Part shown: piece by piece, positions 3,596-55,490 of the stretch
Numbering within the stretch: the stretch's first letter is position 1
How the letters are laid out: each line of letters starts with the position of its first letter
NCBI GenBank assembly: GCA_963921825.1
Contig: OY997588.1
Coordinates: 125,891,203-125,955,202, forward strand
Source of the DNA: Erodium maritimum
Taxonomy: Eukaryota; Streptophyta; Magnoliopsida; Geraniales; Geraniaceae
Direction of reading: 5' to 3'
DNA: 64,000 nucleotides
Position numbers and translations under genes: made by a program
The notes under the pieces: generated by a model
The model's database searches: none
The model's input: only the letters and a program-made list of their open reading frames with translations
What the model was told of the DNA's origin: nothing

Positions 3596-4091
3596 TGTTG
3601 GAATATATATGCAGAACTGATAAAATAAGGGGAACAGAATTAAACAATGCAAACAATTGAAAATTGGAAGAACCAACCGGTTAGACGTGCAGAAGCGGAT
3701 CAGCAGCGGTTGCTCCCCAAGTTTACACAGCTCTACCCAGCAGCGCGCCCACTCGCTCTACTGGATGTGGACTCCGCAGAACAGCACCAGAACAAAGGTG
3801 TAGTAAAATGAAAGAGGAAGGAGGGAAACGTGTATAGTATAGACTCTGGTTTGTGTTGAAATCGTGAGAAACAAAGGAGTACAGAACCAGCTATTTATAG
3901 GTTCGAAAGATGCAAGGTTAAAAAGGTAAAAACACCAACGAATTAAGTGCAAAAAACGTTTCAGTCATTAACCCATTGTTTTAATTCAGAATCAAAACGT
4001 TTCAGCCATTTTAATTCAGAATCAAAACTGGAAAACGTTACAACTTGTTTAAATTAAAAAAGATTTGAATTTCAGAAAATCTTTTACCCCA
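3596..4091 (-). repeat. copia 3' LTR (shorter copy)
   Basis: About 496 bp. It aligns to 6304-6931 over its whole length except for about 127 bp present only in the other copy. It ends CCCCA on the plus strand, where the truncated pol frame enters it. Confidence 0.85.
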
Positions 4092-5420: not shown

Positions 5421-6260
5421 GAGGGCTACATACTTGTTGCGGTTGTTGGGAGGTCCTCGCTTGGGAGCTTCCTTGGTCTTGGACTTGGGCTTCGGTTTGG
5501 GCTTAGGTTGACGAGACGGCCAACCAGACTCCACGATGTTGGCCCTTGCCGTCGGAGGCGGCAAATGTGTTGAGACAGAACTCAGAGCATCCTTCATACT
5601 GTTTTCTCCCTCGATCTTCATATGGCTAATGAGTTCTTGAAGCGTCAGATCCTTCTCTCTATACTTGAGGTGATTGCGATAGTCCTTCCACGACGGTGGA
5701 AACTTCTCCAACAGTACATGGGTGAGGAACACCTCGTCCATCTTCATCCCTTCGTTGACAATGGAAATGTACAAGTCCTCGTAAACGTGGACTTGATCCA
5801 TGATGGAGCAGTTGTCCACCATTTGAAAGGCGGGCCACTTCACCACGACGTACTTCTTCTTCCCAGTGTCGTCAGCCCCATACTTTTTGTTCAAAGTCTC
5901 CCAAATAAATTTGGCTGACTTGTGAACACAAAGTAGGTCAAACAAGGTGTTGGTGACAGAGCTTAAAATCTGGCACCTAGCAGTTTTGTTGTCTTTATCA
6001 AAGTTGAGAAGTTTAGCCTCATTGTCCCTAACAATGGAGGCAACTACGGGAGTAGCACCAGGGGTAGCAGCTAAGGGAATTGGGGGATCATTAAGCAGTA
6101 CATAGTCGATGTCCATTTGTTCAAAAAACATCAATAATTTTTTAGACCAACGACAGTAATTGGTACCGTCAAGTGGTTCAACAACATGCATAGAATGAGC
6201 AGTAACAACAGGCATATAATTCAGGTTTGTATGCATGTCTATATTCATGTTCATGTTCAT
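5420..6260 (-). pseudogene. copia gag (UBN2-type)
   Basis: The frame starts at ATG 6260 with a Met-Asn repeat. It contains the conserved gag-like region from LDGTNYCRWSKKLLMFFEQM through FIWETLNKKYG to MKMDEVFLTHVLLEKFPPSW and LQELISHMKIE. A basic Lys-Pro linker (PKPKPKPKSKTKEAPKRG) precedes the zinc knuckle. The frame then slips and runs out of register to a stop at 5316, so the natural Gag-Pol fusion is broken. This is a structural capsid-like protein that packages retrotransposon RNA. Confidence 0.85.
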
Positions 6261-6303
6261 AACAGTTCACTAAATATATAAATAATCGATATTGCTTTCA
6301 AAT

Positions 6304-6931
6304 TGTTGGAATAAATATGCAGAACTGATGAAATAAGGGGAACAGAATTAAACAATGCAAACAATTGAAAACTGGAAAGAACCAACTGGTTAGACATGCA
6401 GAAGCTGATCAGCAAATCCGTGGTAAACTATTAGCACTTGATAGAACAAACTATTAGCAGTTGTGTTGTAAACTATTAGTTGTGGCGTGGCATACGACCA
6501 CTGACTTGAAAGCAATATTTCCGAGTGACCGAGGTGGCGATCAGCAGCGGTTGCTCCCCAAGGTTACACAGCTCTACCCAGCAGCGCGCCCACTCGCTCT
6601 ATTGGATGTGGACTCAGCTTAACAGCACCAAAACAAAGGTGTAGTAAAATGAAAGAGGAAGGAGGGAAACGTGTATAGTATAGGCTCTGGTTTGTGTTGA
6701 AAACGTGAGAAACAAAGGAGTACAGAACCAACTATTTATAGGTTCGAAAGATGCAGGGTTAAAAAGGTAAAAACGCCAACGAATTAAGTGCAAAAAAAAT
6801 TTCAGTCATTAACCCATTGTTTTAATTCAAAATCAAAACGTTTCAGCCATTTTAATTCAAAATCAAAACTGAAAAACGTTACAACTTGTTTAAATTCAAA
6901 AAGAATTGAATTTCAGAAAATCTTTTACCCA
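6304..6931 (-). repeat. copia 5' LTR (longer copy)
   Basis: About 628 bp. Relative to the other LTR it carries about 127 extra bases (roughly 6413-6539) bounded by GATCAGCA on both sides. The extra part contains three copies of AAACTATTAG. Either an insertion here or a deletion between short direct repeats in the other LTR explains it. Confidence 0.85.
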
Positions 6932-7272
6932 AAAAATTATTTCTTGCCCGCCCTGCAGGGGTTAGACCCGAACCCGAACCCGACCCAGCCTGTCCCGACC
7001 CGGACGGACGGCGGCAGCGGCGGGCGTGAGGCCTATTCCGGCCCAGCCTGCATAGGGAGCCCAAGAGCTAGTTGAGCAAGGACAAGGGGGTTGAGTTTAT
7101 TAACTCAACCAACTCCCCCTTTTTTCCGATGTGGGACAAGCAACAAAACCAAAGGCTTTAAGAAGCCATTTTTTCCAACACCGACCTCCACCTCCATTCC
7201 TCTTCCCATAAATACTCATCTTCCTTCACACCTCTCCTCTTCCCTTCTTTAGTTCTCTATTTTTAGCTCGAA
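6932..7272. other. GC-rich segment with a hairpin, upstream of a Myb-like pseudogene
   Basis: The first part (6945-7070) is GC-rich with CCGAAC repeats and no credible gene. At 7086-7119 GGGGGTTGAGTT and AACTCAACC-AACT-CCCCC can pair as an imperfect hairpin. At 7207-7213 ATAAATA in a CT-rich context resembles the promoter of the pseudogene that starts at 7273. Confidence 0.4.
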
Positions 7273-7639: not shown

Positions 7640-8182
7640 ACGTCTCTACGCTAGGATAATTTAATTTTTAATAAAATTATAATCGTCCATATAATTTTTT
7701 TCGTTTCAATAAAATTACATTTGTTCTTTATTAAAAATATAAAATTAAATTATTTGGAATTAATAAATTCCGATTAAATCAAACAGATTTTACACTACTA
7801 TAATCGTTTGGTTTAACAAAAAGATGTTAACAGCTTGAGTTAACTATTGAGACAAACTATAAGTCAAATGTTTGGCCCAATTATTGCACATGCTATTAAA
7901 ACTCAAGGCTTTCTCCAAATTCATTCTTCCCTATATCTAGATCGTGTTGTAGAATATAATTAGCTTCTTAGGCTAAGAGAGAGTTTAAAAAAAAGGGTTA
8001 CTTGTGATTGCTAATGGCACAATCAGATAAGAAGCCATAACCCACAAGGTTACCCACTGTACCTTCTTTTTTTACCTGATATATTGGATGAACAATTAGT
8101 CCAGACCTCCCAAACAACAATGCTTTTGGATATAATTAGTTCAAATAAAATCATCTTTAAAAAATTATGTCTAGAGCTAATT
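7640..8182. other. AT-rich spacer
   Basis: I see no gene, RNA or transposon end here. The last bases hold the first copy of the LINE target-site duplication. Confidence 0.5.
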
Positions 8183-8199
8183 AACATTGGAGTTGAGAC
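8183..8199 (+). repeat. LINE target-site duplication, left copy
   Basis: AACATTGGAGTTGAGAC, 17 bp, is identical to 10823-10839 on the other side of the LINE. Confidence 0.95.
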
Positions 8200-9960
8200 C
8201 TGACTTCCCAATGCATAGGGGTCTGAGACAAGGTTGCTCCCTATCACCTCTACTCTTTGCCTTAGCTGCTAAATGCTTAAACCAAATTATGAGAATTGGT
8301 CTGCATCAATCTCAATTCCAAGGAATACAAATTGGAGCCTCAGGATCTTGTATCACCCATCTCCAATTTGCTGATGATTCCATTTTCTTCATACAAGCCT
8401 CATCCTTTGGTGCCTCAAATCTTAGGAATGCTCTTGAGATGTTTAAACTCTCAGCTGGTTTGAGAGTAAACTACAACAAATCATCTCTCATCCCAATGAA
8501 TTTGTCCCTTGAAGAAACACAGGAGTATGCTGATATTCTCTCCTGCACTGTGGAGTCCCTTCCCTTCAAATATCTTGGATTCAGTTTGGGATCCAATCCA
8601 AAGAGGCTTATAACCTGGAAGCCAATTTTAGAAAAATTTAAAAAATCCTTTGGACTTTGGCAAGCTAAAACTCTTTCTTTTGGGGCAGAATAACAATGAT
8701 CAAATCCACTCTCAGTGCATTACCTCTGTATTTCGTATCCCTCCTCAAAGCCCCACATTCCATATTAAGATCAATGGAGGCTTGGCAAAGGAGATTCCTT
8801 TGGCATGGAGCTGCTCCAAAAAGGGTCTTCTGCAAAGTTGGCTGGTCCCAAGTCTGTAAACAAAAGGCTGATGGTGGTTTGGGAATCAAAAGCTTGAAAC
8901 TGATGAATATTGCCCTCCTAGCAAAATGGTGGTGGAGGTTTGCTGTTGAATCCAATTATCTTTGGAAACAAATTATTTGTGTTAGGTATGGAAATGGTGT
9001 TCATGACTGGGATCTTAGCAATTTCACTGAGTTGGGGAGCTCCAATTTTTTTACTCACATCATCTCCTTATCAAATGATCCCAACTTTGCTGATATATTT
9101 GGGAGCAAAGGCCTGTCTTGGCAACTTGGTAGTGGCTCTAGGATTTTTTTCTGGGAAGATATCTGGTGGGGAGAATTACACTTCAAGATACTTTTCCCCA
9201 GGATTTACTTACTTGAAAATTCAAAAAAGTCTATTATTGCTGATCTTTGGGATGGTTTCTGTTGGGATTTGGACTTAAGGAGGGATGCCAGAGGTTGGGA
9301 ACTCTTGGAATGGGGTTGTATCTGTGTCATTCTTAATGTCACCTTCTTATCTCCTACTGAAGATAAATTGAGTTGGTCTGCAAATGAAAAAGGCTTCTCA
9401 ATACACAAAATGTACTCCTTACTTGCTGCTCAAGGCTCCTCTACTTTGAATTGGACTAAACACCTCTGGATCCCTGGTATCCCCTCTAAGATCTCTGCCT
9501 TCTGTTGGTTAGCTTGTCTAGAAGCTATATCATCAAAATGTTTTCTTGAAAGCAGAGGTATGACTCTCTCATTCCAAGAGATTATTTGCCCCCAATGCAC
9601 TTGGGACTTTGAAGATGGTGCACACATTTTATTACACTGCAGAAAGGCTTAGGAGGTCTTGCATTTGGTGCTCTCTTGGTGGGGTATTCTGTGGGTATGC
9701 CCTTCTGATGTCAAAGAAACCTTCTGCACTTGGCCCTATTTGGTTCCCTCCAATTACAGAAGGGGCTGATGTAACATTCTGCAAGCAACACTCTAGCAAC
9801 TCTGGCTCTCAAGGAACTCTCTTCTCTTTAAAGGCCAACAAGACTCCTCCTCTCAGCTATTTGTTAAAATTCTGAATAACTCCTTCAGCTGGGAGTGGGC
9901 TTCCTTTGACAAGCATTATCACTTCACTGTCCAAGATTGGATCAACAATCCTTGGCAACT
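8200..9960 (+). pseudogene. LINE ORF2 fragment: reverse transcriptase (3' half) and zf-RVT
   Basis: The frame enters at the RT motif GLRQGCSLSPLLFAL, followed by LQFADDSIFFI (the catalytic [FY]ADD) and SLPFKYLGF. A one-base loss in a G run near 8682 shifts the frame; the second frame resumes with TLSALPLYFVSLLKAP. Then come FFWEDIWWGE, the zinc-binding reverse-transcriptase domain (LWIPGIPSKISAFCWLACL, then CPQCTWDFEDGAHILLHC) and a stop at 9652. Further stops follow near 9768. The upstream RT fingers, endonuclease and ORF1 are absent because of 5' truncation. Confidence 0.92.
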
Positions 9961-24844: not shown

Positions 24845-25573
24845 TTACTTGCCATTTTCAGCTACTGTTGGTTCCTCGCGGCTTTGTTCTGGACTCCATC
24901 TCGTGACTGTTTGCTCCTCAATGGTATACATATCCAAACAAGATGGAGAAACAGCACCATGTCCGTTTCTATTGAGGTGAAGAACTAATAATGTTTTTGC
25001 GACACTTCCACAAAGTCTAATAGTGCAGTGAAAATCAGACCACAGCCTCAACCTCCCATTTACATCACCATACCCATCTGATAAAACAAGCACAGCATAT
25101 TCAGCATGGACAAAAGCTGGATGATGACGGTAAGCAACAAAGTCAACACCATACTGCGATCCTGACCTCACTACCCAATTCTTCCCTCTAAGATGTGAAT
25201 AAGCCTTGTAGAGATTAGGGAATGTGTCCCTCTTGGATTTCATGTACAGCCATAGCTCTACATCATCTTTGGAGCACTTACCTTCACCGACTATCTTGAG
25301 GCATTTTAAGGAATGGCACAGATAAAAGGCTTCCTCCATACCCAACTGAAACCATTGCTTATCCTTGTCAACTGTAGCAATAGGTCGGCCGAAGCACGAA
25401 CGGTTGAGTAGATCAGTTTGTTCTGCTTCTGCAGCAAGAAGTACACTCGACCCAGAGAGTAACCCATAAGCATCTGATTCTATCAAAGAACACTGAAGCT
25501 GTGTAACTATCTTCGACATGGGTTCTACAAGAGCTTTGGCTTCTGACCCCTTTCCTTTCCAACGTGGCCCCAT
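24845..25573 (-). CDS. SEN2: tRNA-splicing endonuclease catalytic subunit SEN2
   Basis: The 242-residue protein matches the plant SEN2-type tRNA intron endonuclease, which cuts pre-tRNA introns at the 5' splice site. The C-terminal nuclease fold contains the catalytic Tyr, His and Lys: SGSQYGVDFVAYR (Tyr141), PAFVHAEYAVLVL (His157) and GSVAKTLLVLHL (Lys193). The N-terminal part (residues 30-130) has the expected EAFYLCHSLKCLKI and YSHLRGKNWVVRSG blocks. The start is ATG at 25573; codons further up are in frame but lack ATG. A single coding exon fits the family. A GC-rich stretch near 26911-27000 followed on the minus strand by CAG/GTATTC could be a 5' UTR exon with a 1.3-kb intron. No lesion is seen, so the gene is likely functional. 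Confidence 0.93.
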   Translation of the reverse strand: MGPRWKGKGSEAKALVEPMSKIVTQLQCSLIESDAYGLLSGSSVLLAAEAEQTDLLNRSCFGRPIATVDKDKQWFQLGMEEAFYLCHSLKCLKIVGEGKCSKDDVELWLYMKSKRDTFPNLYKAYSHLRGKNWVVRSGSQYGVDFVAYRHHPAFVHAEYAVLVLSDGYGDVNGRLRLWSDFHCTIRLCGSVAKTLLVLHLNRNGHGAVSPSCLDMYTIEEQTVTRWSPEQSREEPTVAENGK

Positions 25574-27101
25574 TTTATCCTTCAATAGGATAAACTAGTC
25601 TAAGTCAGTGAGCATCTGCTACTAAGTAAAGTTATTTCGTAGACGCTTTAAAAAGGCGTTTCATATAAGATTGTACATAGGATTTAAAGCAGCATAAACT
25701 ACAAGAAGTAATACACAAAATCCACCATAATCAACAAGCATTTCACTAGTACATAATCATATTTAAACAAAAATGCTAAATCATGGTCATTCCTAGAGAG
25801 TCCAAACTCCAAAATTCCATTTCAAGCATTTTATGCAGAACCAGGAATTTATTTTATGGGTAGCCATCGATAATTAATAAATATATAGAAGAAAATACTT
25901 TCGCAAGAAATCAATGTTTAATTTATAAATAAAAGTTAATTATAAAACTATATGTAACAATGAATCTATAAATCATGAATAGAAAAAATGAACATGTTTA
26001 ATGCAAATTACCATGTTTAATTCTTGGTACCGATTAAGTATCCCAAATATAATAACTAGGATCCTTAAACCCACTTACAATCCATAGATATCCTCATTCT
26101 CTGCTAAATCTATATGAAGTTAATCAGACCAGGTCGTGAAGGAAATTAGAAAGATGAAGCAGCGCTAAGTTGTATAGCTTTTGATGGTTATTATACAGGG
26201 CTGGAAGTAGGAAAATTATATAGTTCACTTTGAAGGCAATAGCAAAATTAGAGCCCTAACTGTTACACAATCAAATTTACTAATTTAAGCTAAAATGAAT
26301 CATAATTATCAATCAACACCACTCCTTTCCGTAAAATGAATCATACCCACCAATCAAAATCACTCTTTTCCCCAGTTTTTCACCAAAATCACCATTTTTG
26401 AACCAATGCAAAGTTACAGCCTTTCTTCATCGTCTGGCAATTGTTGAGCAAAAGACCCCAAACCCAGAAAGCAACTCAAACCCACCAAACCCAAAACAAC
26501 AGCCCAGTACAGTATCGGCTATGGCCTTCAAAATAAGAACAGTTCTGGTGCACAAACACTTGAATATGGATCGAATTTACATCTCACAAACACTTGAAAC
26601 AGAAGGGAACAACATAATCACAAAAATTAACCTCAGACAAATCGCAAAAAATTATAACTCTTCTTACCGAGCAAAATTCGGCTTCTGGGTGTCACTCATA
26701 TTGACCCAAACCATAAAAAAAATCCAAAGCAAAGCAACCCAACAATTGAATTTTGCAAATTTCTAATCACAGTTCATATAAACAGTAGTTTCCAAACAAG
26801 TAAGGCACATTCTTCTGCCTCCACCACGGTCCACACCTCATAAACAAGACCAACTTATTGAACTAAGAAGATCCCAAAACCTGATTTCAAGTGGTTTTGA
26901 AGAGAATACCTGGCCTTGACTGCGTTTCCCGGCGAGGAACGTTACTTGGAGTTGGAGGCGACGCGGAGGGGAGTTGGACGTTGGAGTTCAGCAGATGGAA
27001 GGGGTGCGGCGGGAAAGGGGGTAATGAATTGGTTCAAGTCTTTGTGGACCTAATAAAAGGAGGGAATTAGCAAAATGACTACGGATTTGTACCTCTTTAG
27101 C
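25574..27101 (-). other. probable 5' UTR intron and 5' exon of SEN2
   Basis: Reading down the minus strand, GC-rich sequence at about 27000-26911 ends in a good donor (GGCCAG/GTATTC). AT-rich sequence then runs to an acceptor-like CTATTGAAG just before the ATG. No other gene is supported inside. The exon model is inferred from splice motifs only. Confidence 0.4.
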
Positions 27102-27116: not shown

Positions 27117-28986
27117 AAATGAGTGGGATTTATCCAAATTCTCTGAAATTGAATCAGGAGGTTTTTTACAACATCTACTGGCCTTAAATGCTGATCCAAG
27201 GTTCAATGATTTATTTGGTTTCAAGGGCCTCTCTTGGAATCTTGGTAATGGTCAGAGGATATTTTTTTTGGGAAGATATCTGGTGGGGAGTCTCTTCATT
27301 TAAATCCTTATTCCCAAGGCTCTTCATTCTTTCTCAAGCAAAAAAGGCTTTGGTTTCTGATGTTTGGACAGGTTCCTCATGGGAACTCCAATTCAGGAGA
27401 ACTCCTAGAGGCAGGGCTGAGCAAGATTGGATGTCCCTCCAGTTTATTTTGAATAATGTTATAATCCTTCCTCAAGATGACTCTCTCAGTTGGTCAAGTG
27501 ATCCAAAGGGTTTCTATGTCAAAAGAATTTATTCAATTCTTGATAATCAAGGCTCCTCTTTAACCAATTTTAACTGGTCTAGACACCTTTGGATCCCTGG
27601 TATTCCACCCAAAATAACTGCTTTCTCTTGGTTGGCCTGCCATGAGGCTCTCCCTAGTAAGTGCTTCTTGGATCTCAGAGGTATGCAGTTCTCTTTGGAG
27701 GAAATTCTCTGTCAGCATTGTCACTGGGATTTTGAGGACATCTCCCATATCCTATTGCACTGTTCTAAGTCTTAGAAGGTCTGGGCTTCTATTTTCACTG
27801 GTGGGGAGTGGTCTTTGTCATTCCTAGTTCTATCAAGGACCTCTTTTCATCTTGGTCTTTTCTTCTTCATAAGAACAGAAAATCACATTGGGGGAAATTA
27901 ATTCAATTATCTTGTTGGAATATCTGGTTGGCTAGAAACAAGCTGGTGTTTAATGGAGTTGATCTGTCAGCCATCCAAATCCATGATTCCATTGTCTCTC
28001 AGTCCTACAGTTGGGCTTGTGCTTCCTTCTCCAAAAATGGCTCCAGCTTTTCTTTCCAAGATTGGAGATCAGCTCCTCAAAGTTGCTGAGCTTGTTTCCA
28101 GTGGCCTGGTTCTATTGGGGTTTGGGTTGGGAAGGGTTTGGGAAGGGCTTGGGTTGAGTGGTGAGTTTGGTAAGGTTAGCTTGGCCTTCTTCTTTTGTCT
28201 CTAGGTTCTGTTCTGTTGGGTTTGTTGAGCTTTGTTTTGGCTCTTTCTCTTTCCCGTGTGTGGGTATTAGGATCTTCTTCTTTGAGTGTGGGTATCTATT
28301 TTTAGGTCTGAGTGTTTCTTCCTCTCCTTCTCCTCCTTTGCTGGTTGTTGGGTCTCTTTTGTCTTAACTGTACTGCTTCAGTTTTTGTTGTTGCTTGGTT
28401 TTGTTGCTGCAGATTCATTTTGCTGCATTTTATCTTTCTATCCTCGGCTTAGGTTGGCTGGTAAGACCATTTGGTTGCTTGTCTTGCCAATGGGTTGCAA
28501 TTCAGCTGCTATGCACTTTTTTCTCGGCCCTGCTTGGTCTGCAAGACTCTCTTTGGCTTGCTTGGATTGCAAGTTAACTTCATCTCTTGAATTTCTTGCA
28601 AAATGATTTGCCTTTGTCTGCTTCGGTCTGGATCTCTTGGTTGGTGGGAACTCATTTGCTGCATAATTCCCTACCATTTTCTGCAGTGCTGTTTATTGTC
28701 TTCTGCCCTGCTTTTCTTGGAGTGCAAGCAAACCCTCGGCCTTGCTTGGATTCCAAGCTATCTCGAATTTTTTGTTTCTCTTGCTTGACGTACAAGTCTC
28801 TTGTTGTTGATCTCTTTCCTACTTGTTTTATGTTTTGTTTGTGTTTTGTTTGTAGTTGTTTCCTCTTATAGATGGCATATGACCATCTTGGAGATTCGCC
28901 CCCTTTTTTTGTGGTCTTCTTGGCCTTGTAGCTCTCTTTTACCTCAAAAGAGGCTCTTTAATGAAAATTGCCTATTCAAAAAAAAA
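27117..28986 (+). mobile_element. second 5'-truncated L1-type LINE
   Basis: It starts late in ORF2, past the RT catalytic motif, and ends in an A tail (28979-28986). It is flanked by diverged 15-bp repeats (27102-27116 and 28987-29001). Layout and coding parts follow the LINE at 8200-10822, including FFWEDIWWG and the zf-RVT block. The two mismatches in the duplication make this insertion older than the first. It lies about 100-200 bp upstream of the presumed SEN2 5' exon. Confidence 0.88.
27118..28090 (+). pseudogene. LINE ORF2 fragment: linker, zf-RVT
   Basis: The frame from 27118 reads NEWDLSKFSEIESGG then FNDLFGFKGLSWNLGNGQRI. An extra T in the eight-T run at 27252-27259 shifts it to FFWEDIWWGVSSFK. 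Later come HLWIPGIPPKITAFSWLACH, CQHCHWDFEDISHILLHC (zinc-binding RT domain) and a stop at 27775. The remainder is out of frame. Confidence 0.85.
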
Positions 28987-43409: not shown

Positions 43410-45302
43410 ATTAGTGTAATAACCACTCCCGGTCAACGCCAGTCAAACCTGCGAAAAACAGGAAAATTTAAAAATTTTAAGACGGACACTTAATGAACCT
43501 AAAATGACCCCGAGTGTCATACCGGACTTAAGTTGACCCCGTTATTGACCAAAGTGAGTTACGGGGGACTCAGGGCAACTTTCTGATCAATTTGAGAAAT
43601 GTTGACTTTTCGCTGGAAAAGTCAACCGAGCAACGTTTTGGTCCATTCGAGGACCGTTTTGGATCCGAAAAGCTTAACCGTCATCGCAGCGGTCTTAGTT
43701 GAGCCGTTTCCTTGTGGCCCGCCAAGTTTCGTAATTTTTGGGAAAAAGTGCCCGTTCGGGGCCCGAAACGTCCGATTTTCGCGAATCTGATTGGAAAATA
43801 TTAACTAGATATTTTCCAAAAGGTGTGGGACCCACCTTGACACATGTCCTAAATGTGGTGGTGTTAGTTTTGGGGGGAAAATGAATGGAGGAGAAGGGCT
43901 GGCCGAGACTTGGGTTTTAAAAGAAAAAAAAAGAGTTTTAATTGGGTTTTTATGTTAGTTGTTTTAAATTAGAAAGAAGAAGAGAGGTTTTAGAGAGAGA
44001 AGGAGAAGGAGAAGAAGAGAGAAGAAGGGAGGTTGAGCTAGGGTTTGTGATCGATCCCTTGGATCGAGTCAAAGCAAAGAGCAATCCCGTTCCCCTCGTT
44101 CTCCTCTACGGTAATACCCGAATCGATTCTCGTTTTGGTTATTTTCTTGGAAGCTAGGGTTTGAGTATAAACTAAGGCTTAGGGTTGTGTAGAGTGTGGG
44201 GGAGGTGTTGGAGACGTTTTAGAGGTGTTTGGGGGTTTAATTTCACGTTTTCCGGTGACCGGAGGCTCGGGAGGAGCTCCGGCCACCGTGGGTGGTGGCT
44301 GGCCGGAGCTGGCAGCAGCCACCACATGGTGGCCGAGCCTCCCCTTAAACCCTAGGGTCTCGTCCAAGTAGTGTGGGTGGGGCCCACATGCTCGAGTGCT
44401 CGGTTTTTATCGTTCGGGTGGTTTAAAACGTTCCCCGGACCATTTATCCTTAATCGAATCGAAATTTGGAATTAAATTGGAGAAGTTGTAATTAACGGGT
44501 TTTGGAAACTTTAAACGTTAATTAATTGACTTAGAAGTCGGAATTCAATTCCGTCAAGTGCGTTGGGTTCCTTGAAATATTCTAAGACCGTAGAAACGAA
44601 AACGGGAACTTTTGGAGCCCCGGAAGGCAATTAACCAAAACCCGGGCAGATTCGCCATGTCGGGCGAATCTGGCCTTTACGGGTCCTTTATCGACAATAT
44701 CGAGTAATTGGGAAGTTTGGGAGTGATCGGCATTGTCGGGGTTACGTTTGGGCGTTAAGTATGTTAATTTTCGGTTTATTCGTACTAGTTTAAAAGTACT
44801 TTGAATTTGTGTTCTTTTAGATCGTGCTACGGACCGAGGCAAAGGGAAGCTCGGCGAGTGACTGGGTGTACTTCGGGTGTTGTTGGAGCGCTTTTGGGAT
44901 TATATACGAGGTAGGGAAAAGTAGCCGGATCTCGGCCCTGACTGGGGAAAGTTAACAGTAGAATTGCATGTGACACTGGGGTGTCGTGGGTTGAATAGGT
45001 TTATTTAAATATTAGAAAAGCATGATACGAGTTTGTAGCGTTTATTAGAAAAGCATGTTACGGGGACTTAGTAATTATTGGAAAGGCTTGTGACACTTAG
45101 TAGTGTCGTAGGAACAGAGAACTTAGCGCTAATTGTTTTACTGGAGGCATATGACCATGCCCGGAGGTTGTTTGTGAACTTATCTATATTAGGAGTACTG
45201 GAGGCATATGACCATGCCCGGAGGTTGATTGTGAAACTGTTGATGTTAGGACTGTTGGAGGCTTGGTTAAGCCGGAGGTTGATTGCTTATTTGGTGTCTT
45301 GA

Positions 45303-45670
45303 GTGGCCTTGAGAGCCCGTATTTTATTATCGAGTTCTGGGTGGCCTTGAGAGCCCGTATTATTTATTGATTGAGTTTGGGTGGCCTTGAGAGCCCGTAT
45401 TTTATTATCGAGTTTTGGGTGGCCTTGAGAGCCCGTATTATTTATTGATTGAGTTTGGGTGGTCTTGAGAGCCCGTATTTTATTATCGAGTTTTGGGTGG
45501 CCTTGAGAGCCCGTATTATTTATTGATTGAGTTTGGGTGGTCTTGAGAGCCCGTATTTTTATTATCGAGTTTTGGGTGGCGTTGAGAGCCCGTATTATTT
45601 ATTGATTGAGTTTGGGTGGCCATGAGAGCCCGTCTATTTAAATTGGTGTTTTGGGTGGCCTTGAGGGCCC
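45303..45670 (+). repeat. about 39-bp minisatellite inside solo LTR copy 2
   Basis: About ten copies of GTGGCCTTGAGAGCCCGTAT followed by either TTTATTATCGAGTTTTGG or TATTTATTGATTGAGTTTGG. The two variants alternate, so the effective higher-order unit is about 78 bp. Confidence 0.9.
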
Positions 45671-45989
45671 GTGTACTAAGGATGGTGTCTTTGGCTGGCC
45701 TGACCGAGTTAGAGTCTCGGGGGGGTTGCAAGCTTCCTTTAGCTGGCTTACGAGTTAGAGTCTCGGTAAGCTGCAAGCGTGTCTTATGGTTGGTGTCTTG
45801 GGAGGCCGTGAGTGCCTGTGGGATTGTTGAGTCCGTGTCTTACTATCGGTGTGTCTTGGGAGGCCGTGAGTGCCTGTGGGGCTGTTGAGTTCGAGTTTTA
45901 CTGTTGGTGTCTTGGTGGCCATGAGTGCCTGTGAGTGTTGAACTTGTGTTGTTACTGGTTGATGAATTTGCGTGTGATTGTGATTGCGG

Positions 45990-46165
45990 ATCCTGGTAGG
46001 TTGCAAGCATTCTTTGGCTGGCCTGACCAAGTTTGAGTATCAACGGGTTGCAAGCATTCTTTGGCTGGCCTGACACGAGTTTGAGTAACACAGGTTGCAA
46101 GCATTCTTTGGCTGGCCTGGTCCGAGTTTGAGTATCACAGGTTGTAAGCATTCTTTGGCTAGCAT
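45990..46165 (+). repeat. about 47-bp minisatellite inside solo LTR copy 2
   Basis: Four copies of GGTTGCAAGCATTCTTTGGC followed by TGGCCTGAC-CGAGTTTGAGTA-like sequence. Confidence 0.85.
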
Positions 46166-46900
46166 GATCCGTGTTCGTGTGAGTGGGAGAGGTTACTGAG
46201 CAGCTGGTATGCGATCCTTTGTGATCTTGTTTGGTGTGCGATCCTTTGTGATCTTGTTTGGCGTTGTGTAGTCTTTCTGTCGTGTCCTTGGAGGAGGTCG
46301 TCGATAGTTGTGTCGGGTCTACATTGTGTTATCGAGTGTTGAGTCTGTTGAGGAAGGTAACGGGTTGTGGGTCAGTTGGGTACTTGAGTTGGGGACTATA
46401 GTCCCAGTGTTGGGTTTGGTTTTAGTGTTACTGGCTTTGTCTGCTAATTATGCCGTAGTCAGTCTGTTATCCGTGGTGGTGAGCGAACGCTCACCCCTAG
46501 CTTCTTTTCCTACATGTACTGTTCGTGGGACGGACTAGGTGAGCTCTCGAAGTTCATGGAGCTTGGAGCGGAGTCTGGTCTTTACTTTTGTTGAGTCTAG
46601 TGACGGATGTGTACCTTGTCCACTTGTTGGGACGTTTTTGTATTGTAAATACTACTATTATTTTGGTAAATAAATGGAAATGTCAAAGCTTTTATTCAAA
46701 ACAGGTTTTAAGCATTCATGTTTTAAAAGTTCGCGTCCCGAGTTCGATTCGCTGAAATTGGGGCGTGACAATTAGCTAAAACTAAAGAATGTAAATTACT
46801 AAGGTCTGCACCATATTTTAACATGATTCTATGACATATGAGTAAAAATGATCATAATTACACAAGGAAAACAAAAAAAAAATATGAAGGCGATGTATAC

Positions 46901-47158
46901 CTGGAATAATTCTAATGGTTCTACAAATATCAGGCAGTCTCCTGATAGATGGCAATGCGAATCAGTAAAGATAAGACATAAAATGAAATATGATTTAGAA
47001 AGCAACAAGAGATCCAACCATTAACTTCAGAACAATTATGATGGAGAAGAACATTCCTTACCATGAAAATTATGGGAGAAACTTGGAGATACCGAGCGAG
47101 CAAGGCCTGCTAAAGAGGCAATAAAACGAAAAACTTTTCTGGAAATCGAAAGAGCCAT
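46901..47158 (-). pseudogene. orphan first exons of a mitochondrial-type precursor
   Basis: On the minus strand ATG 47158 opens 32 codons (MALSISRKVFRFIASLAGLA RSVSPSFSHNFH) rich in Arg, Ser and hydrophobics, like a mitochondrial presequence. The exon ends at a perfect donor (CATG/GTAAGG, 47062). A second exon (46941-46901, GDCLIFVEPLELFQ) joins in phase and ends at another donor (CAG/GTATAC). Beyond it lies the solo LTR, and I find no further exons on its far side. The product is unknown. It may be a gene fragment carried by a Helitron or a gene cut by insertion. Confidence 0.45.
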
Positions 47159-49457
47159 GCCCTACCAACTTTGCTGATTTAGAATTGAACTGCATACATA
47201 GCAAATAGTGACATCTTTTCCATCCTCTCGTTCAAAAAGTACAACTTGCGAAGTATATCATATACACTATGCAGTGCAACAACGAATATGCAAAACAAAT
47301 GAAGAATTACCCAAATTCTAAAAAAGAGATGTCATTACCTTAACATTTGATTTGCAGAGCCTGAGATTTTGTGCAAAAATCAGGTGTAGACATGCATCAA
47401 AACATACCCTAAAGCACTCCGAAAACCAGTGTTTAAATCAACCAATTTTCCAGATTCCCAGCCCAACAACTTACACCCCAAAATCAAAGACTTGCGATTA
47501 TTTTTGGTCTTTTCGCCTATTTTTGATGCGGTGCTAGTAGAAACGTTGTTTGAGAAAATACGTTGCAAAAACCCCAAAGCATGGATATGAATACTTGGCA
47601 TTCCATTAGCAACGCTGTGTATATTTGGCATTCTATTAGCAATGTTTTGCACTGAGATCGTTTGATGAAAAACCTTATGGAAACCCTTAATTAGTTTCAT
47701 CCGACTCATAACTTGCCTTAAAGGAGTTGGATCATAGGTTAATTGGATGAGAAACTTGATGAAAATTCTGAATTTCATTCGATTCATAATTTGCCTGAAA
47801 GGAGTTGTAGCATAGGTTAATTGGTGTTACATATGCTTCAATCTATATGAAATTATTCAATTGCTAACAGTTCATTTAATTCGATGTGAATCCTAACCTG
47901 TAAATCAAGAGCTGAAGGAACTTTTCTCTTCTGCCCCCATCAACATGTTGTACAACCCACTTCCATTCATGACATTATTGATTAATAGCTTCAAGAAGCA
48001 CCAATACCAAAGTTCCCACGAACATACCATCTGGAACAAAGAGAATGTAATCCTACACAGAAAAGATAGTAGATGTAACCACTGATTTAATCCATAATAT
48101 CCTTACCAGTTACCACATAAGGAATTATGACATTATAGAGTAAAAAGAAGAGAAGGATAGTTCGTGCAAGGTTTTTGCTCAGGCTTATGTGGATCCTATG
48201 TGGCAGCTCTCACTGTTGGTTATTGCTTTCTTCCTTGCTTCTCCTACCTCGGCACTGCTGTTTTTTATCGGTTACCACGGTTTGCTGTCGGTTACAATTG
48301 TTTCATTGGGTCTTTAAAGGATGGGTGAGGCCGAGCATTCATCATGTCTTGGATTGCAGTAAATGTACGAGGTTTCAACCGTCCCCCAACTAGCACGTTG
48401 TACCGATTCCTTTGTCGGTTACGTTGTGCGACCTTGCTGTGCACGCTAATCTTCAATTGCCGGCTTCATCATGCCTTGAATTGCAGTAAATGAGCATGAA
48501 TAGGTTTAATGGGCGGGTTGATTTTATTGTGCTTGGTAATGAGAGGGCTTTCAGTAACCTTATATACGTATGGTTTGAGGCACCTCTTTTCTTCTATCTT
48601 GCTGCGATTTGGTTTGCTTGGTAGAAGAACAAGATACGTGTTGCTTGTGATCAGTTTGATTTTATTAATTGCCAATTTTTTTTAGATTTTCTTTCACCTA
48701 AAGTGTTCGTTGTGCCCAATTTGATTTTAATGATTTCCATTGCTCTTTCCATTCAACCATCTATTTGTGTAGGTGTCTTTGGCATCTTAGATTCATCTAT
48801 TGATTTGGATTTTAGGGTTTCTAACATTGATTATGTCCATTGGTCATGCTCAATTTAGGATTTTTCACAATTATGATGACGTTGGTTTTGGAGTAATTGA
48901 TGTGCTCTCTGTATTTTCATTTCTGAATTTTCCTTGATTCAGAAGATAATGGATGATGAAGTGAGCAGTTTTATTTTAGTTTAATCAAAATAAGCTTGCT
49001 TTCTGAGTGTCAATGTTACTCAAATATGATTTTATGTTTCCTGAGACAGAATGATTTCGATTTAAGTGTTGATGTTGTGTGCCTGTTTATTTCCAGACAA
49101 CAGAAGATGGTGTTGTGGGTGAGTTCTTTCTGCTGGTTGTAGTTCCATTGGCTAAGTCCTAATTATTTCACATATTTTCCTTTAAACAACAGCATACCAG
49201 GACTTTAGGAGAAATGCTCAACTTTGCTCTCAGGGTTTGATGATTACAAGCGTTCAATTTCATATTGATTTGGCAATCAATGAGTTTAATGGTATGGTCG
49301 TTTCATGCAATCAATGAGTTGTTGTGTATAAACTGATCCAGACACTCTTTCTCTTTGTAGAAGTCATATCACTCATAGAGTATAGGAACCAGATTCGTAA
49401 CAGCGAGAGAAGTAGCAAGGTACATAGATATGAAGCCTAAGCCAAAACAGATTTAGA
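47159..49457. other. spacer with no firmly supported gene, possibly Helitron interior
   Basis: Short frames are present on both strands (for example 47380-47787 minus), but none shows a family signature. The 5' end of the plus-strand Helitron that ends at 52106 should lie in this region or just right of it, but I could not fix it. Confidence 0.35.
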
Positions 49458-49621
49458 CATAGGCAGTTCCTCCGCAGCCACCGCAGTGGATGTCGGTGCG
49501 GTACCACTTCAAGCGCCACCAATAAGGATCTAGCGGCGAGAACAGGATGCTATGGGCCGGAGGTCTGCATCAGTGGATGGACGAGGCTTACTTGTACAAT
49601 TGTTTTGCTCCGGCCGGTGAG
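49458..49621 (+). pseudogene. captured exon fragment of an RBP45/47-type RNA-binding protein
   Basis: The plus strand reads PPQPPQWMSVRYHF, a stop, then NRMLWAGGLHQWMDEAYLYN CFAPAGE, ending at a GT donor (49622). Gln/Pro-rich sequence with QWM followed by the first RRM start (TLW-G-L-WMDE-YL--CFA--GE) is diagnostic for the RBP45/47 family. Only the first exon is present, and it has a frame lesion. It lies upstream of the AMP deaminase fragments and the Helitron end. Confidence 0.72.
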
Positions 49622-50953
49622 GTGAGAACTACAAAAAGCTTACAATTCTACTAATTTTGTTGGCTATTTTTATTCCGAGTTCATTGGTTGGTTATTAGTT
49701 TTCTGTTTATGATCATCTGATATGGTTTTTTTATATTCAAGAAAATTAGTATGAAAATCTATAAATGATGATAAACATTGTTCTGATGTGATTTATTTTG
49801 TGGTGAAATGAGATTGAGATCGGTACTTTATGTCTTCAATTTCATGCTTCATCGTGTGTTCAATTACAGTAATTATGTCTTGAATGCCATTGGTTCATCC
49901 TCTCTTCCTTTGCGTTGACTTCGTGAATTCAGAATCAGACTAATTGTTCCAAACGGTCCAAGAATTGCAGTAAATGTACAATTATTTGGTCTTGAATGAA
50001 ATGGTTTCGACCGATTCAATGATTTGAACACCAATCTGAGTATCTGTTGCTATTTATGATGACTGGTACAAAGCCTCTTGGAGGCCGGTTAACTGTGTAC
50101 ATTGTATCTGCATTTGGGGTTTATGGTTTCCATAGTTTCTACATCTGGCATCCTCTACTTCTACAACAGGTAAATTCATTACCTTTCATTCCATTTTTTG
50201 TTGGTTCAACAAATACTATGGGCTATAGATTGTATTTGTGGTGCCCTCCCACACAAACGTATAAACATAACCATCTGAACTAGACATTCATCAACAGGTA
50301 TATATGTGCCTATAAATATCGATTTAAAAAACTAAAACATGAGATTGAATGGCATCAGATGAAGGTGTAGTTCTATAGATGAATTTGTTATTGATCTGGA
50401 ATTTTGCTGGTGCGAAATGGGTTTGCCTTAATTCAGAAATTAGGTTTTGGTTTTATATGTTTGTGAAATTGGAATGATTTATTGTTGCTTGATTTGTTAT
50501 GTTCTTATTAGAACTAATGCACTGTGATGTTGCACTTTTTCGCTGAGATTTATAACGATTGAAACCTTGAAATGTGTTGTAAGATTCATTAATTTGGGTG
50601 TTTGATGAGGATTCTATTTGAGATTTACGTATGGTGTTGTAATATGATACTAATTAGATGTTCTTTTCCTGACAAGAAATGAAAATTAAATGATATGAAA
50701 CTCTCTTCTCCTATAAAATGTTTAGTTGTTGAGACTATATTTGAAAGCATATGGCTCCAGTATTGTGGTTTTTTCCTATTGCATTGTTCAATCATGCGTA
50801 TGTTTTTGTTTTTGTATTTAATTGTCCGATAAAATGAAGGACTCTGACTGTTAAAATGCATATACATAATGTTATGTTGTCTATCTTCTTTTAGATATCT
50901 TCACCCCTTCTCTGCGGTTGAACTAATGTTTGTTGCTCTGCGGGTACGATCAG
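49622..50953 (+). other. non-coding or unrecognised sequence between captured fragments
   Basis: A plus-strand stretch at about 50050-50170 can be read as TGTKPLGGRLTVYIVSAFGVYGFHSFYIWHPLLLQQ, ending CAG/GTAAAT. This suggests a further exon of an unidentified membrane protein. Nothing else is recognised. Confidence 0.3.
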
Positions 50954-51925
50954 AATATTGATTTATTGGACGTTCATGCTAATAAGAGTATTTTCTACCG
51001 ATTTGACAAATTCAACCTCAAATATAATCCTTACGGATTAAGCAAATTCAGAGAAATCTTCTTAAACACGATAATTTTTCCAAGGTCTAACATACAGGTA
51101 CATATAGCTAATTTGTTGCCTTTAGAAAGCTTGATTAGTATTATTTAGTTAATATTTTCTCTATTTATTTGAATGTTTTACATTTTTTATACTTTGTGTT
51201 TGAAGTCCAAGTTAAGGTCAACTTCATATCAGTATTCTTTTAAATCAAGTTATGTCCATAAAATAAGAGTAAGTGCTCAATATTAAAGTGATTCACACAG
51301 GTAGATTTTTGGCCGAAGTAACAAAGCAAGTTTTATCAGATCTTAAAACGAGTAAATATCAGGTTTTATTATGTTTTATTTATATCATATATATTTCAAC
51401 AGAGATGTTGTAGAAATCACCCATGGGCTATAGTCTCAAATGGTCTTTTAATTATTAAAACCTTGATCTAAGTTACATTATATATCTTTTCAGATGGCTG
51501 GGTATCGTATCTCAATCTATGGAAGGAAACAAAATGAATGGTACCAACTGGCAAGCTGGTTTGTAAACAATTCTGTCTATACTGAGAATTTTGTTTGGTA
51601 ACTTGTAATGTCTATGCTTCTTACTTAGAAACTAGGGACATTTTATTCCAAGAAGACATATGACTATTTTCATTAGTGAAGAAAACTTGGTAGCTAAAAG
51701 GGAAAAGAAAATAAACAGCATGCTAAAATGTCGTATTTTGTATAACTTTCTTTTTAGGTGTCTTTTTGTGTGTGATTATATTCTACAGTTGACACGGTTA
51801 TAAAATGTGTACAAGAACATAGGATATGTTACATCATTCCAAAACATTTTGGATGACATTTCCATTCCACTATTTGAGATCCAAGTTCTCATCTTCAACC
51901 ATGCATGTTCTTGCTTTAGGCAAGT
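50954..51925 (+). pseudogene. captured AMP deaminase exons (C-terminal catalytic region)
   Basis: Four exon-like blocks in the correct order match plant AMP deaminase, the enzyme that converts AMP to IMP: 50954-51097 ([37 protein letters not shown]), 51301-51362 (FLAEVTKQVLSDLKTSKYQ), 51494-51597 (MAGYRISIYGRKQNEWYQLA, SWFVNNSVYTENFVW) and about 51796-51925 (YKNIGYVTSFQNILDDISIP). Introns between them are kept with GT and AG borders. The phase at the first junction is off by one, and the last block is frameshifted. The N-terminal half and the metal-binding His/Asp regions are absent. It is a genomic (intron-bearing) fragment and so not a retrocopy. It ends about 180 bp before the Helitron 3' end. 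Confidence 0.85.
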
Positions 51926-52075
51926 TTGAACTTCCAAATTTTCAGACCTCTTTTATTGTTTATATATTTAAGAATTTTCAAGTGGGTTTATCTTTGTTTT
52001 GCGTTTATTTTTAGTTCATCTGTTGTTTTTAATCTGCGATGAGTTATATTAATTTACGAAGAATTCTCACACCAA

Positions 52076-52106
52076 GCACCGCGCAACGCGCGGTGCACCC
52101 ACCTAG
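52076..52106 (+). mobile_element. Helitron 3' terminus (plus strand)
   Basis: A perfect 9-bp hairpin GCACCGCGC-AAC-GCGCGGTGC (52076-52096) is followed by ACCCACCTAG and the host T at 52107. This is the canonical Helitron 3' end (hairpin, about 10 nt, CTAG). The captured exon fragments upstream fit the known habit of plant Helitrons. The 5' TC end is not located, so total length is unknown, at least 2.6 kb if the RBP fragment belongs to it. Confidence 0.75.
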
Positions 52107-52107
52107 T

Positions 52108-52793
52108 ATGTCTTATGCTTAACAACATGAGGCAACTCACAGTACATTCATAAATGCATAAAAGATATCATTCAATCTCCAGCATCAGGTTCAACTATTT
52201 CAAATTGAAAATACATTCACCAACATGAGAAAGGGAAAATTCATATCGGATTTGAAATTGATTACCTTGACATAAGCAACAAACTCCATGGCTTGCTAGT
52301 CTCAAAACATGTAGGGTGGACATAATGCAACCTTGCGCCTGCACCTTAACTTCCATCATCGAAGTAACATTTGTACCTATTAAGATAGAAATCTTATTAA
52401 TAAGTGTTGATAAATAATTAAGAATGATCATTCTATAGAAAAAAGACATTGTTTTTCCGGAATAGTCAAAATGAGAAGGACCCGTCAGGTTTAACACATG
52501 ATTTTTGTCAATTTTAATCAACACGAATTACAATAAAATTGGTCACTGAAACTAATATATATTGAAAAAATGGCATGTAATAAAACTCAACAACATATTT
52601 ATTCTCAACGCGCCTAACCAACTCGACGAATCCGGACAACTACTCCACAGAAGTCCTCATAGTTTTCGCCGAACCGGTTTCGTGATTTACATCTTTAAAA
52701 CAAAATTAACCCAGAAAAAACCCAAATGGATTGTCAAAAAAATTAAATATGGTGAAATTCATGAGTATAGCTCCTAATCCCTTTTGAACAATC
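52108..52793. other. spacer between Helitron end and solo LTR
   Basis: AT-rich; no supported gene on either strand. Confidence 0.45.
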
Positions 52794-53865
52794 TGTTGGA
52801 CAAAAGTGAGTTTAGACAAATGGAAATGGTCAACTTGACGCTCAATTATATATAGGATCGGCTCATCCTAGAACTATGGAAAAATTAGTTTGGTATTCTA
52901 GGAAGTGAGGCCTTTCCAACGAGATATTATGAGGTCTAAACGGACAAGAGGTGAATGAGAAATTAATGCTCAAAGATCACCCGTTGAACTTAGTTGTTGA
53001 GAAAATTACAAGTGGAAAATACATCATTCTTGTGTTGTCCCACATTGAAAGATTACCGAACTTTCATTGGGTTTATATAGTGTTGCCTTCTTAGCATGTT
53101 TGAATTGCTTGGATGAAAGACTTTGAGCGGGACACGAATGCTGCAGCGGAATTGGGCGTGTAGTGCCAGCTCCGTTTTGCTTCGGCCCGCATTGAAATTT
53201 CAACAATTAATTTCCAATTTGTAGAATATGCAAATTAAGGAAATCCGAGATTGATATCTATTTCAGTTTTGGAAATTGATATGCAATTAAGGAAATTTCC
53301 AAATTGTATATTATTTCGAATCTTAATATAATTCCGGAAAAAAATTCGTTTCCGGATTTTATTAAATTCGAAATTAATATTTAATTACCAAATTTTGATA
53401 TTTCCGAAAGTTGTTGTTTCCAAAAACTCGCTCCCAACTCTCTCTCCTTTTCCTATATAAGCTCTGTTCTACTTCATTATTCGTAGTGAAAAATTAGACA
53501 CGTAGTAGAGACGAATTAGATATGAAATTTACCTACACAATTTCTCTCATTCTCCAAGAACAGAGCAACTGATTTCTTTCTACTCGGTGCTACTTCTCAT
53601 ACACGGTTTCGAGTTCGTTTACGTTGTCGTTGTATCTTGGGAGACTTGCTCAGACGGGGCAATAAAAAGTCTTAAGGAAACTGGTTCGCAGGCCTCGACA
53701 TACCAGTATCCTCTTCGAGTATCGACTGAGGTTACTGTATCGATTATGTATCGTGTTTACATTATTGCTTTTACATTATTGTTACTTATGTGATTCTACT
53801 GTTCATCAATAATATTTGATTCATTTTATCTGTTTATTATCGTTTATGGACTAACCCGTCTAACA
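52794..53865 (+). mobile_element. solo LTR, 1072 bp (target duplication CAATC)
   Basis: It begins TGTTGGAC and ends GTCTAACA, with identical 5-bp flanks CAATC (52789-52793, 53866-53870). CCTATATAAGCTCTGTTC near 53452 looks like its promoter, which fixes plus as the sense strand. No internal domain is present. It is unrelated to the large-LTR family at 12286, 43415 and 59553. Confidence 0.92.
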
Positions 53866-54007: not shown

Positions 54008-55490
54008 TTTTTTTTTATAAGCTCGAAAATTTATTAATAAGACCGATTCCCGAAAGGAACCATAATGCCCTGATTAAAAATAATCAGAGTAAAAGACAAC
54101 GATTACACAGGGACTCCATAACGGGGAGTCAAAAGGCCTACCCTTTTCCGAGAAACGAAAACGAAACAAATGAACATGAAATAAAAAAGATAACCCCACG
54201 AAACCTCGCCTCCCGACATCAGAAAATACTCGTTTCTTTCTTTTTAGAAACCAAATTAAAAATTGTAATCCAAGCATCGGTACCATGAGACGAAGTTGCA
54301 CCTGAAGAGTTTTCAGTTCTGTCATGCTCAATTTGTTTCCTAATGACAACGGGACGAGCAACTCTTTCCCGCTCCAAAGAGTGGTTCCTTGATTTGCACC
54401 GCATGGTATAAAAATCTGACAAATATTGGGAGGTCGACTCACTCGTTTCGACGATTTAAGTAGAGCGTCCTTCCAGGGACTACCTTTCGGAGGATCATCA
54501 CTCTCTCCCAAAAAATTCGTCGGGCTACCCAAAACAAGACTCAGATCACTAAAAGTCTGTAATGGAATAGCTTGTAATGGATCAATCGACCAATCCATGC
54601 CTACACTCAAGCCCAGACGCAGAATCTGCCCCAACCTTAGGCACATTCGCGTCCAGCCCAACTGACTCTTCTTCTCCCTCGCGCAAAACAATTGGTTCTT
54701 CAGCCGAAACGCAGTCAACAAATTGACATTCAATCTACTGAATCTCGATCACCACCAATCACGGAACCATCTGGCCGATCTTCGCGATTTTCTGAATTAG
54801 AAATCAAAATCGTTTGATTTCCAAGCTGCACACCGGGATCCTCTTGCCGAGACCGATCTTCACGGTTTGCATGATCAGAATTCAAAATTTCCATTTAATT
54901 TCCGATCTGCTCACCTGGAGAAAGGTTCGGCGATAGTCCCTTGCTGCAGCTCACTTCTGATGGCTGAGAGACGTATTCAGGTGAACAATTTGCCGGTACT
55001 AGCACCAAACTCAGTTTTGTTACTTCATCCTGCACTCTGGAATCAGCACTGGACTTCTGAGGCCAGGCAAGAGCCACAAACAAGTGATACCCATTAAATT
55101 TCAGCCCGTTCATACTCTTAACGGCCTGAGCAGCCGCCTCCCTTGAACTGTATCGCACAAAACCATACAACTGATGATTGCGATTTGGTCGACTCAAAGC
55201 CAACGAAGACACTATATCGCCAAAGGGACTGAAGGTATTACCGAGCCACTCGTCCGTTGTTCCATACAGAAGATTACAAACAAAAATTTCTTCGTCTATA
55301 ACTTTTCTAACACGTCGTGCAGAGGACGCCTCCACCAATCCTGTTTCCAGAACCTGCTTCACGGGCCTCTCCTTGACCTCCACAACCTTCGAGACATCCA
55401 GCACTACCTCCCCTGCTTCTATGGAACCGGAAGCAACACAATAAAAATCGCAATGAGTATCTTCCTACAAATAACGCATTATATTTTATA
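54008..55490 (-). mobile_element. LINE ORF1 fragment with RRM, minus strand
   Basis: A T run at 54008-54016 is the A tail on the minus strand (CTTATAAAAAAAAA). Reading from about 55460 on the minus strand, the frame gives EEIFVCNLLYGTTDEWLGNTF, a Phe-rich middle, LYGFVRYSSREAAAQAVKSM and NGYHLFVALAWP. This is a complete RNA-recognition motif with RNP2 and RNP1, as in ORF1 of some plant L1 elements. The frame stops at 54895. A second, shifted frame to 54074 contains PWKDALLKSSKRVSR. No start codon is left, so the 5' end is truncated. No target duplication was found. Confidence 0.65.

Follow-up and report, generated by a model that had tools for sequence, protein, structure and literature searches.

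The DNA analysed here, the window, is a stretch of 64,000 nucleotides from Erodium maritimum (C1:125891203-125955202), and all comparisons with the host were made against a genome whose 40 contigs total 763,042,520 bases. Its plus strand holds a copy of a Helitron in which fragments of a decarboxylase gene, an RBP47-type gene and an AMP deaminase (AMPD) gene lie, all three in the sense orientation, upstream of a terminal hairpin (Table 1). We regard this copy as almost certainly a non-autonomous, 5'-deleted and decayed plant Helitron that carries DNA of three or more host genes. A preliminary description of the locus had reported captured exons of two unrelated genes; the sources are indeed unrelated host genes, and their number rises to at least three with the decarboxylase fragment, which had been overlooked.

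Table 1. Parts and flanks of the Helitron copy, in positions of the window.
Feature	Position	Strand	Basis or likely source
Left flank of insertion	47983-48176	+	90% to C2:38952869-38953059
Helitron copy, non-autonomous, 5' tip absent	48173-52106	+	~3.93 kb; family homology from 48173 to CTAG at 52106
Family 5' subterminal region, without the terminal ~24 nt (TCATATATCTTTATAAAAAGAACG)	48173-48489	+	alignment to family copies
Internal segment, source unassigned	48490-49144	+	79% to family copy at C9:37.228 Mb
Decarboxylase exon fragment, captured	49145-49232	+	likely source C8:9300957-9301045
RBP47-type fragment, captured	49413-49830	+	BLAST homology from 49418; likely source C1:157378063-157378599
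Internal sequence of family type	49832-50340	+	alignment to family copies
Other internal pieces, source unassigned	50373-50850	+	matches in family copies and other places
AMP deaminase segment, captured	50863-51988	+	C7:18052544-18053805; BLAST homology from 50866
AMPD exon A	50944-51084	+	alignment to C7 gene
AMPD exon B	51301-51362	+	alignment to C7 gene; splice sites intact
AMPD exon C	51494-51597	+	alignment to C7 gene
AMPD exon D	51789-51919	+	alignment to C7 gene
Family 3' terminal module	51977-52106	+	~130 nt, full length in L009, L010, L011
3' terminal hairpin	52076-52096	+	perfect 9-bp stem, AAC loop
CTAG terminus, then T (52107)	52103-52106	+	sequence and family comparison
Right flank	52107-52238	+	86-87% to C2:38952683-38952815

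At the right end of the element, positions 52076-52106 read GCACCGCGC-AAC-GCGCGGTGC-ACCCAC-CTAG on the plus strand and are followed by T, the perfect stem being separated from CTAG by a 6-nt spacer. Folded as single-stranded DNA, the hairpin reaches -13.3 kcal/mol (z -5.5), a value equalled by 0 of 200 shuffles. A strict motif for such an end (perfect 9-bp stem with at least 7 G/C, loop of 2-5, spacer of 4-10, CTRRT) occurred once in the window and in none of 60 first-order Markov sequences of equal length, while a looser form of it gave 4 hits in 40 first-order Markov sequences. Since the looser form also arises in Markov sequences, the 3' motif taken alone is only suggestive. The decisive evidence is a genome-wide family: a 37-nt pattern of the terminus, with up to 3 mismatches allowed, matched 64 places including the window copy versus 0 for the reversed pattern that served as control. 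For this reason 52076-52106 is taken as the genuine 3' terminus of a Helitron family, in agreement with the hairpin, CTAG and T that the preliminary description had picked out.

A genome search with bases 52000-52110 as query, in which the best 40 of 107 candidates were scored, supplied the 20 family copies next best after the window copy (L009-L028, 10 kb each). Their alignments to the window end at 52105-52109 in 19 of 20 cases and at 52116 in L014. The end is CTRR|T in 19 of the 20, L010 having TTAG|T (read by eye and likewise seen with the 37-nt pattern), and T follows it in all 20. Judged by eye, the flanks beyond this end are dissimilar among copies, except that L016 and L017 share theirs. 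Most fetched copies other than the three with the full-length 3' module retain ~60 nt of it. L015, and by eye L014 too, has a second partial 3'-end-like segment without hairpin just upstream of its terminus.

The 5' end of the family was located from sister copies; a scan with a general plant Helitron 5' consensus did not locate it. Of four copies whose 5' sides were aligned, three begin A|TCATATATCTTTATAAAAAGAACG, and the terminus A|TCATATAT, at 4 or fewer mismatches in 20, was found in 8 of the 20 fetched copies, preceded by A in 8 of 8. L026 is, by eye, a ninth copy with this end; it was not found in the remaining fetched copies, which may exceed 10 kb or be diverged. Copies with both ends are ~4.1-7.1 kb long (the value of 7185 computed for L010 is ~90 nt too high). 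The search for a 5' TC end, which the preliminary description had proposed, thus succeeded in the sister copies and failed in the window copy. In L011 the Helitron 5' end is split at ~4527-5938 by an insert of ~1.4 kb that starts GGGAAATTTC, ends GAAATTTCCC and is bordered on both sides by TATCTTTA; it resembles a transposon with terminal inverted repeats and an 8-bp duplication inside the Helitron tip.

Family homology in the window starts only at 48173, and covers 48173-48330 in L009, 48173-48324 in L010, 48177-48329 in L023 and 48197-48277 in L026. The term 5'-deleted for the window copy rests on the homology of its 5' subterminal and 3' terminal DNA to those of two-ended copies. Its left boundary thus lies well inside the limit of 46.8 kb suggested earlier; 46774-48172 is flanking DNA, of which 46774-47163 matches C1:10528463-10528851 at 92%. 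A region on another contig, C2:38952651-38953350, aligns to 47983-48176 and to 52104-52238 with 50 bp separating the two blocks. As both flanks are matched there without an insert, C2:38.95 Mb is a paralogous empty site, from which 48173-52106 is missing as a single block. A second candidate empty site at C5:12717122 matched weakly, at the right flank only, and was not used.

At the 3' junction the empty site reads ...GATTAA|TACGTC, the canonical Helitron A|T target; insertion of the window copy at A|T is read from this side only, the left side having been destroyed. Relative to C2, ~53 bp of target and the terminal ~24 nt of the Helitron are absent from the left junction, where flank homology stops at 48176 and the join falls at a GTTTTG-like stretch common to flank and Helitron. 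The simplest reading is a later deletion across a normal junction. The left end might instead be a primary insertion that was 5'-truncated from the outset by initiation inside the element. This is a possibility that we consider rather unlikely: the GTTTTG-like microhomology at the join favours it, but the ~53 bp of target are gone as well, the 3' side sits at the canonical A|T, and a later deletion explains the arrangement simply, with neither course proven.

The largest captured piece comes from an AMPD gene. Pfam PF19326 (AMP deaminase) was matched in two plus-strand frames of the element (E 1.3e-28 and 7.7e-9), and a query typed by hand from the exons matched PDB 2a3l at E 2.5e-42. One other place in the genome is colinear with this segment, the C7 locus of Table 1, at 85-88%, where the surrounding 10 kb contain PF19326 in all three plus frames (12 stretches, best E 4.1e-100) and the four corresponding exons are open in one frame; an AMPD-like locus at C9:14.69 Mb gave exon matches only, at 75-76%. 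The C7 alignment bears out the four ordered, intron-bearing blocks on the plus strand that had been described. Both edges of the captured segment fall inside introns of the C7 gene, and the retained introns (identity 0.889 over 678 sites) confirm the earlier view that capture took place at the DNA level. Exon A begins at the junction 50943/50944, and not at 50954 as first placed; 50888-50943, considered as an AMPD coding exon, is intron in the C7 source gene. No AMPD gene was seen to continue at the Helitron locus itself, the gene lying on C7, and genome searches did not find the fragments together elsewhere; neither of the two refuting outcomes named in the preliminary description was seen. 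A genome search with 3 scored candidates turned up the AMPD segment in no other family copy, and a literature search joining Helitron with AMP deaminase gave no match.

The two smaller captures were traced in the same way. The decarboxylase fragment, which we take to be of the tyrosine/aromatic-amino-acid decarboxylase type, lies in sense and is 87.6% identical over 89 columns to its C8 match. In the C8 source region (800 bases) there are two open exons, in which Pfam recognises pyridoxal-dependent decarboxylase (PF00282, E 7.2e-39). The RBP47-type fragment comprises the end of the 5' untranslated region (UTR), exon 1 (ATG at 49430, to 49621) and the start of intron 1, with the donor GT at 49622-49623. 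Its stretch 49503-49830 matches C1:157378063-157378391 at 87% over 329 columns, and exon 1 of the C1 source is open from ATG to the donor GAG|gtgagg. When the 33 residues at 49526-49624 were compared with PDB, RNA recognition motif (RRM) proteins made up 13 of the 13 listed matches (E up to 10), the best being tRNA selenocysteine associated protein at E 0.0053 and the others ranging over 0.09-1.8; Pfam found no RRM in the fragment. The match is weak when only protein tools are considered and strong at the DNA level, so that the first exon of RBP45/47 type named in the preliminary description holds up; RBP47 is presumably the right name for this RRM-type fragment. In the window, stretches of the exon are deleted and stops are present, the frame from the ATG ending after 8 codons. 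A stretch of one open frame at 49360-49437, just upstream of the homology to the RBP47 5' UTR, was considered as a fourth coding exon and rejected, having no PDB or Pfam match; a longer stretch gave none either.

Between the captures lies sequence that recurs in other copies and at other places. Segment 48490-49144 is also matched in part at C3:75.96 Mb (83%) and C9:30.74 Mb (81%). Further on, 49832-49874 is matched in L010, 49979-50029 in L009 and L010, and 50373-50602 is common to three family copies (C7:65.82, C4:36.05 and C1:21.17 Mb); 50391-50673 is matched at other places, and 50772-50850 is 88% identical to C3:3993007. Among the 37 non-self rows listed for 48200-50880, several of them from one copy, 14 are followed on their own strand by a family 3' end no more than 20 kb downstream, and the other 23 are not. 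L010 has sequence like 48173-48466 followed closely by sequence like 49832-49874, and a family unit of ~40 nt flanks the intervening block at 48450-48489 on the left and at 49833-49872 on the right, and recurs at 48323-48362. From this arrangement and the bracketing units, the block ~48490-49831 appears to be an insertion within family sequence. In the copy that ends at C5:46829308, four tandem segments like 49902-50340 are spaced 578-596 bp apart (C5:46822845-46825006, seen as matches).

Decay of the captured DNA was measured on the AMPD segment against the C7 gene. Exons (438 sites) are 0.879 identical, with a Kimura two-parameter distance (K2P) of 0.134, and the introns give a K2P of 0.120; differences at codon positions 1, 2 and 3 number 16, 14 and 23, with 146 sites each, and the third-position excess may stem from silent substitutions in the C7 gene. 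Four frameshifting deletions (1, 1, 10 and 10 nt) have struck the exons. Exon A carries both 1-nt deletions and its acceptor AG (50942-50943) is now GG, exon C has lost 10 nt at its 3' end, and exon D shows an in-frame TAA, the other 10-nt deletion and a donor GT changed to GC. Because GC donors are sometimes used in plants, this change weakens the exon D donor and does not prove loss of splicing. The RBP donor GT (49622) and the acceptors of exons B, C and D, ending at 51300, 51493 and 51788, are intact. As judged from these alignments, the AMPD fragment has evidently evolved free of coding constraint since its capture. At a substitution rate of 7e-9 per site per year, a distance of 0.12 would correspond to ~8-9 million years, as no more than an order of magnitude.

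These observations bear on the proposal, made in the preliminary description, that the locus shows gene shuffling in progress; on that reading a young, mobile Helitron would produce a chimeric RBP-AMPD transcript. The common sense orientation of the three fragments and the intact splice sites just named would suit such a transcript, and maize Helitron transcripts are documented as spliced in the sections of PMC4528327 drawn on here. The copy, however, lacks its 5' terminus, the AMPD segment was not found a second time and stands at K2P 0.12-0.13 from the source gene, the exon A acceptor and exon D donor are mutated, four deletions shift the AMPD frame, and the RBP frame stops almost at once. 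We consider the proposal improbable, and the predicted splice from the RBP exon to the first deaminase exon meets a native acceptor that is now GG as well as broken frames. The captured exons might still be transcribed from inside the element and spliced from 49622 to the acceptors at 51300, 51493 or 51788 to give a non-coding chimeric RNA; this, too, we judge improbable, if anything slightly more so. Were it true, shared sequence or small RNAs could let such an RNA act on mRNAs such as those of AMPD or RBP47. That the fragments are segmental duplications or ectopic repair patches merely lying beside a Helitron end, with no capture by the Helitron, is highly improbable and largely refuted: filler-type repair can join such pieces, which here come from different chromosomes and show a short overlap at the AMPD junction, but 48173-52106 is missing as one block from the empty site, family sequence stands at the 5' side (48173-48489), in the middle (parts of 49832-50340) and at the 3' end, and in a sister copy on C9 a decarboxylase piece lies between family-type 5' sequence and the family 3' end.

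This C9 sister copy (3' end at C9:37225251) also bears on the order of the captures by the Helitron. Its decarboxylase piece is longer than that of the window and 85.8% identical to the C8 gene over 394 columns (L038), and neither RBP47 nor AMPD was found in it by genome searches and in 3.0 kb of fetched sequence (L038 and L044). The presence of the decarboxylase piece without an RBP47 or AMPD match points to an earlier, separate capture step. At the other side, AMPD homology (to 51988) overlaps homology to the 3' module (from 51977) by ~12 nt; with the family 3' end retained as well, template switching or microhomology joining is likelier than simple read-through.

In the history that we propose, an element with the family ends A|TCATATATCTTTATAAAAAG... 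and ...GCACCGCGC-AAC-GCGCGGTGC-N6-CTAG|T would have taken up genomic DNA with introns from the three genes, always in sense and upstream of its 3' hairpin. The decarboxylase exon fragment was probably acquired earlier, in a step of its own, the order of the RBP47-type exon 1 with its intron and the four-exon AMPD piece not being fixed. The AMPD piece would have been joined to the 3' module by template switching or microhomology joining during replication. The element would then have inserted at an A|T dinucleotide, as the paralogous empty site indicates for the 3' side, and on or after insertion the ~53 bp of target and the 5' tip, absent today, would have been lost. The pattern would fit stepwise capture as in maize Helitrons.

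Several points weigh against this reading of the element and its history. The 5' TC terminus is missing from the window copy. Among six frames of 46780-52110, AMP deaminase was the sole Pfam match, with no Rep/helicase, and no autonomous partner with exactly these family ends was identified; elsewhere in the genome Helitron_like_N (PF14214) gave 105 matches from 150 scored candidates. The C1 and C8 source regions were seen over 1.0 and 0.8 kb only, and coverage of the C9 sister copy stops ~1.4 kb short of its 3' end. RBP-intron sequence also occurs on C4, on C6 and at two C1 places, none with a family 3' end (up to 3 mismatches) within 20 kb downstream, and three of these four places adjoin sequence like 49956-50116, which has no clear place in the stepwise scheme. 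For want of a family 3' end at the four places, the idea that the RBP47 capture marks spread by the Helitron family was dropped. A three-way comparison of the window, the C1 source and the C4 place (24, 21 and 10 shared sites) is not rootable. At L040 (C4:27608700-27609500) and L043 (C6:35058600-35060100) the RBP47-intron sequence is joined to other gene-like sequence, suggesting that the RBP47 region was captured or duplicated on other occasions as well.

The window also holds features outside the Helitron copy. To its left, 43415-46770 is an LTR-like (long terminal repeat) repeat of ~3.36 kb, TGTAATAACC...GGGGCGTGACA, with ATTAG on both sides (a 5-bp target duplication), internal minisatellites (units of ~78 and 47 nt), no pol-like open reading frame (ORF) in the ORF list and relatives in L009, L012, L016, L017, L019, L025 and L037; it is probably a solo LTR. 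To its right, a highly repeated sequence (52794-53300) begins ~690 nt past the Helitron end, the best 40 of 439 candidates being 91-93% identical, excluding self. A Copia-type element at 3596-6943 has 405-bp repeats 95% alike (3698-4102 and 6539-6943) and minus-strand gag/integrase ORFs, and LINE reverse-transcriptase remnants (RVT_1, zf-RVT) lie on the plus strand at 8181-9652 and 27188-27775. Two minus-strand ORFs carry other domains: 24845-25594 has the two domains of tRNA intron endonuclease, PF01974 and PF02778 (a Sen2-type host gene or copy), and 54895-55464 an RRM domain (PF00076, E 2.4e-14), perhaps of LINE ORF1. Rfam and tRNA scans of the window and a plasmid blastn search gave no match. 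A scan of the Helitron end for bacterial promoters and terminators was likewise empty, a result that carries no weight here.

Taken together, we see in this element an unambiguous yet ordinary relic of gene shuffling and not an emerging new gene. Its history is nearly fully reconstructable from the family termini, the likely sources of three fragments, the empty site, a sister copy with intermediate cargo and the similar decay of exons and introns, and it cautions that exon-like blocks can have died long ago even when they border a perfect Helitron hairpin. The mechanism is termed peel-and-paste in the part of a plant review consulted (PMC13317346). For Helraiser, the part of the source cited describes the 3' hairpin as a termination signal whose bypass yields new 3' ends with captured DNA (PMC4778049). 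The Erodium copy shares with Helraiser/Helibat the 3' hairpin, the CTAG end, the AT target and capture of host DNA, but Helraiser is an experimentally active bat element with 3' read-through capture; the Erodium copy retains the family 3' end and has its captures inside. As far as the cited sections of PMC4528327 go, maize Hel1-331/332/333 give alternatively spliced transcripts and resemble our copy in having captured exons with introns and in splice-site loss that includes an acceptor AG turned to GG; the Erodium copy, in contrast, is known from DNA alone and has two native splice sites and its frames broken. Another close parallel, from the excerpted text of PMC3288121, is maize helA/helB, relatives with different subsets of gene fragments that are taken as evidence of stepwise capture. 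These share with it CTRR, the 3' hairpin, A|T insertion and several gene fragments per element; they differ in host and apparently in 3' end sequence, and the Erodium copy is decayed, lacks the 5' tip and drew on decarboxylase, RBP47-type and AMP deaminase genes. As a case from outside maize it can serve to illustrate stepwise Helitron capture, and it leaves the known picture unchanged.

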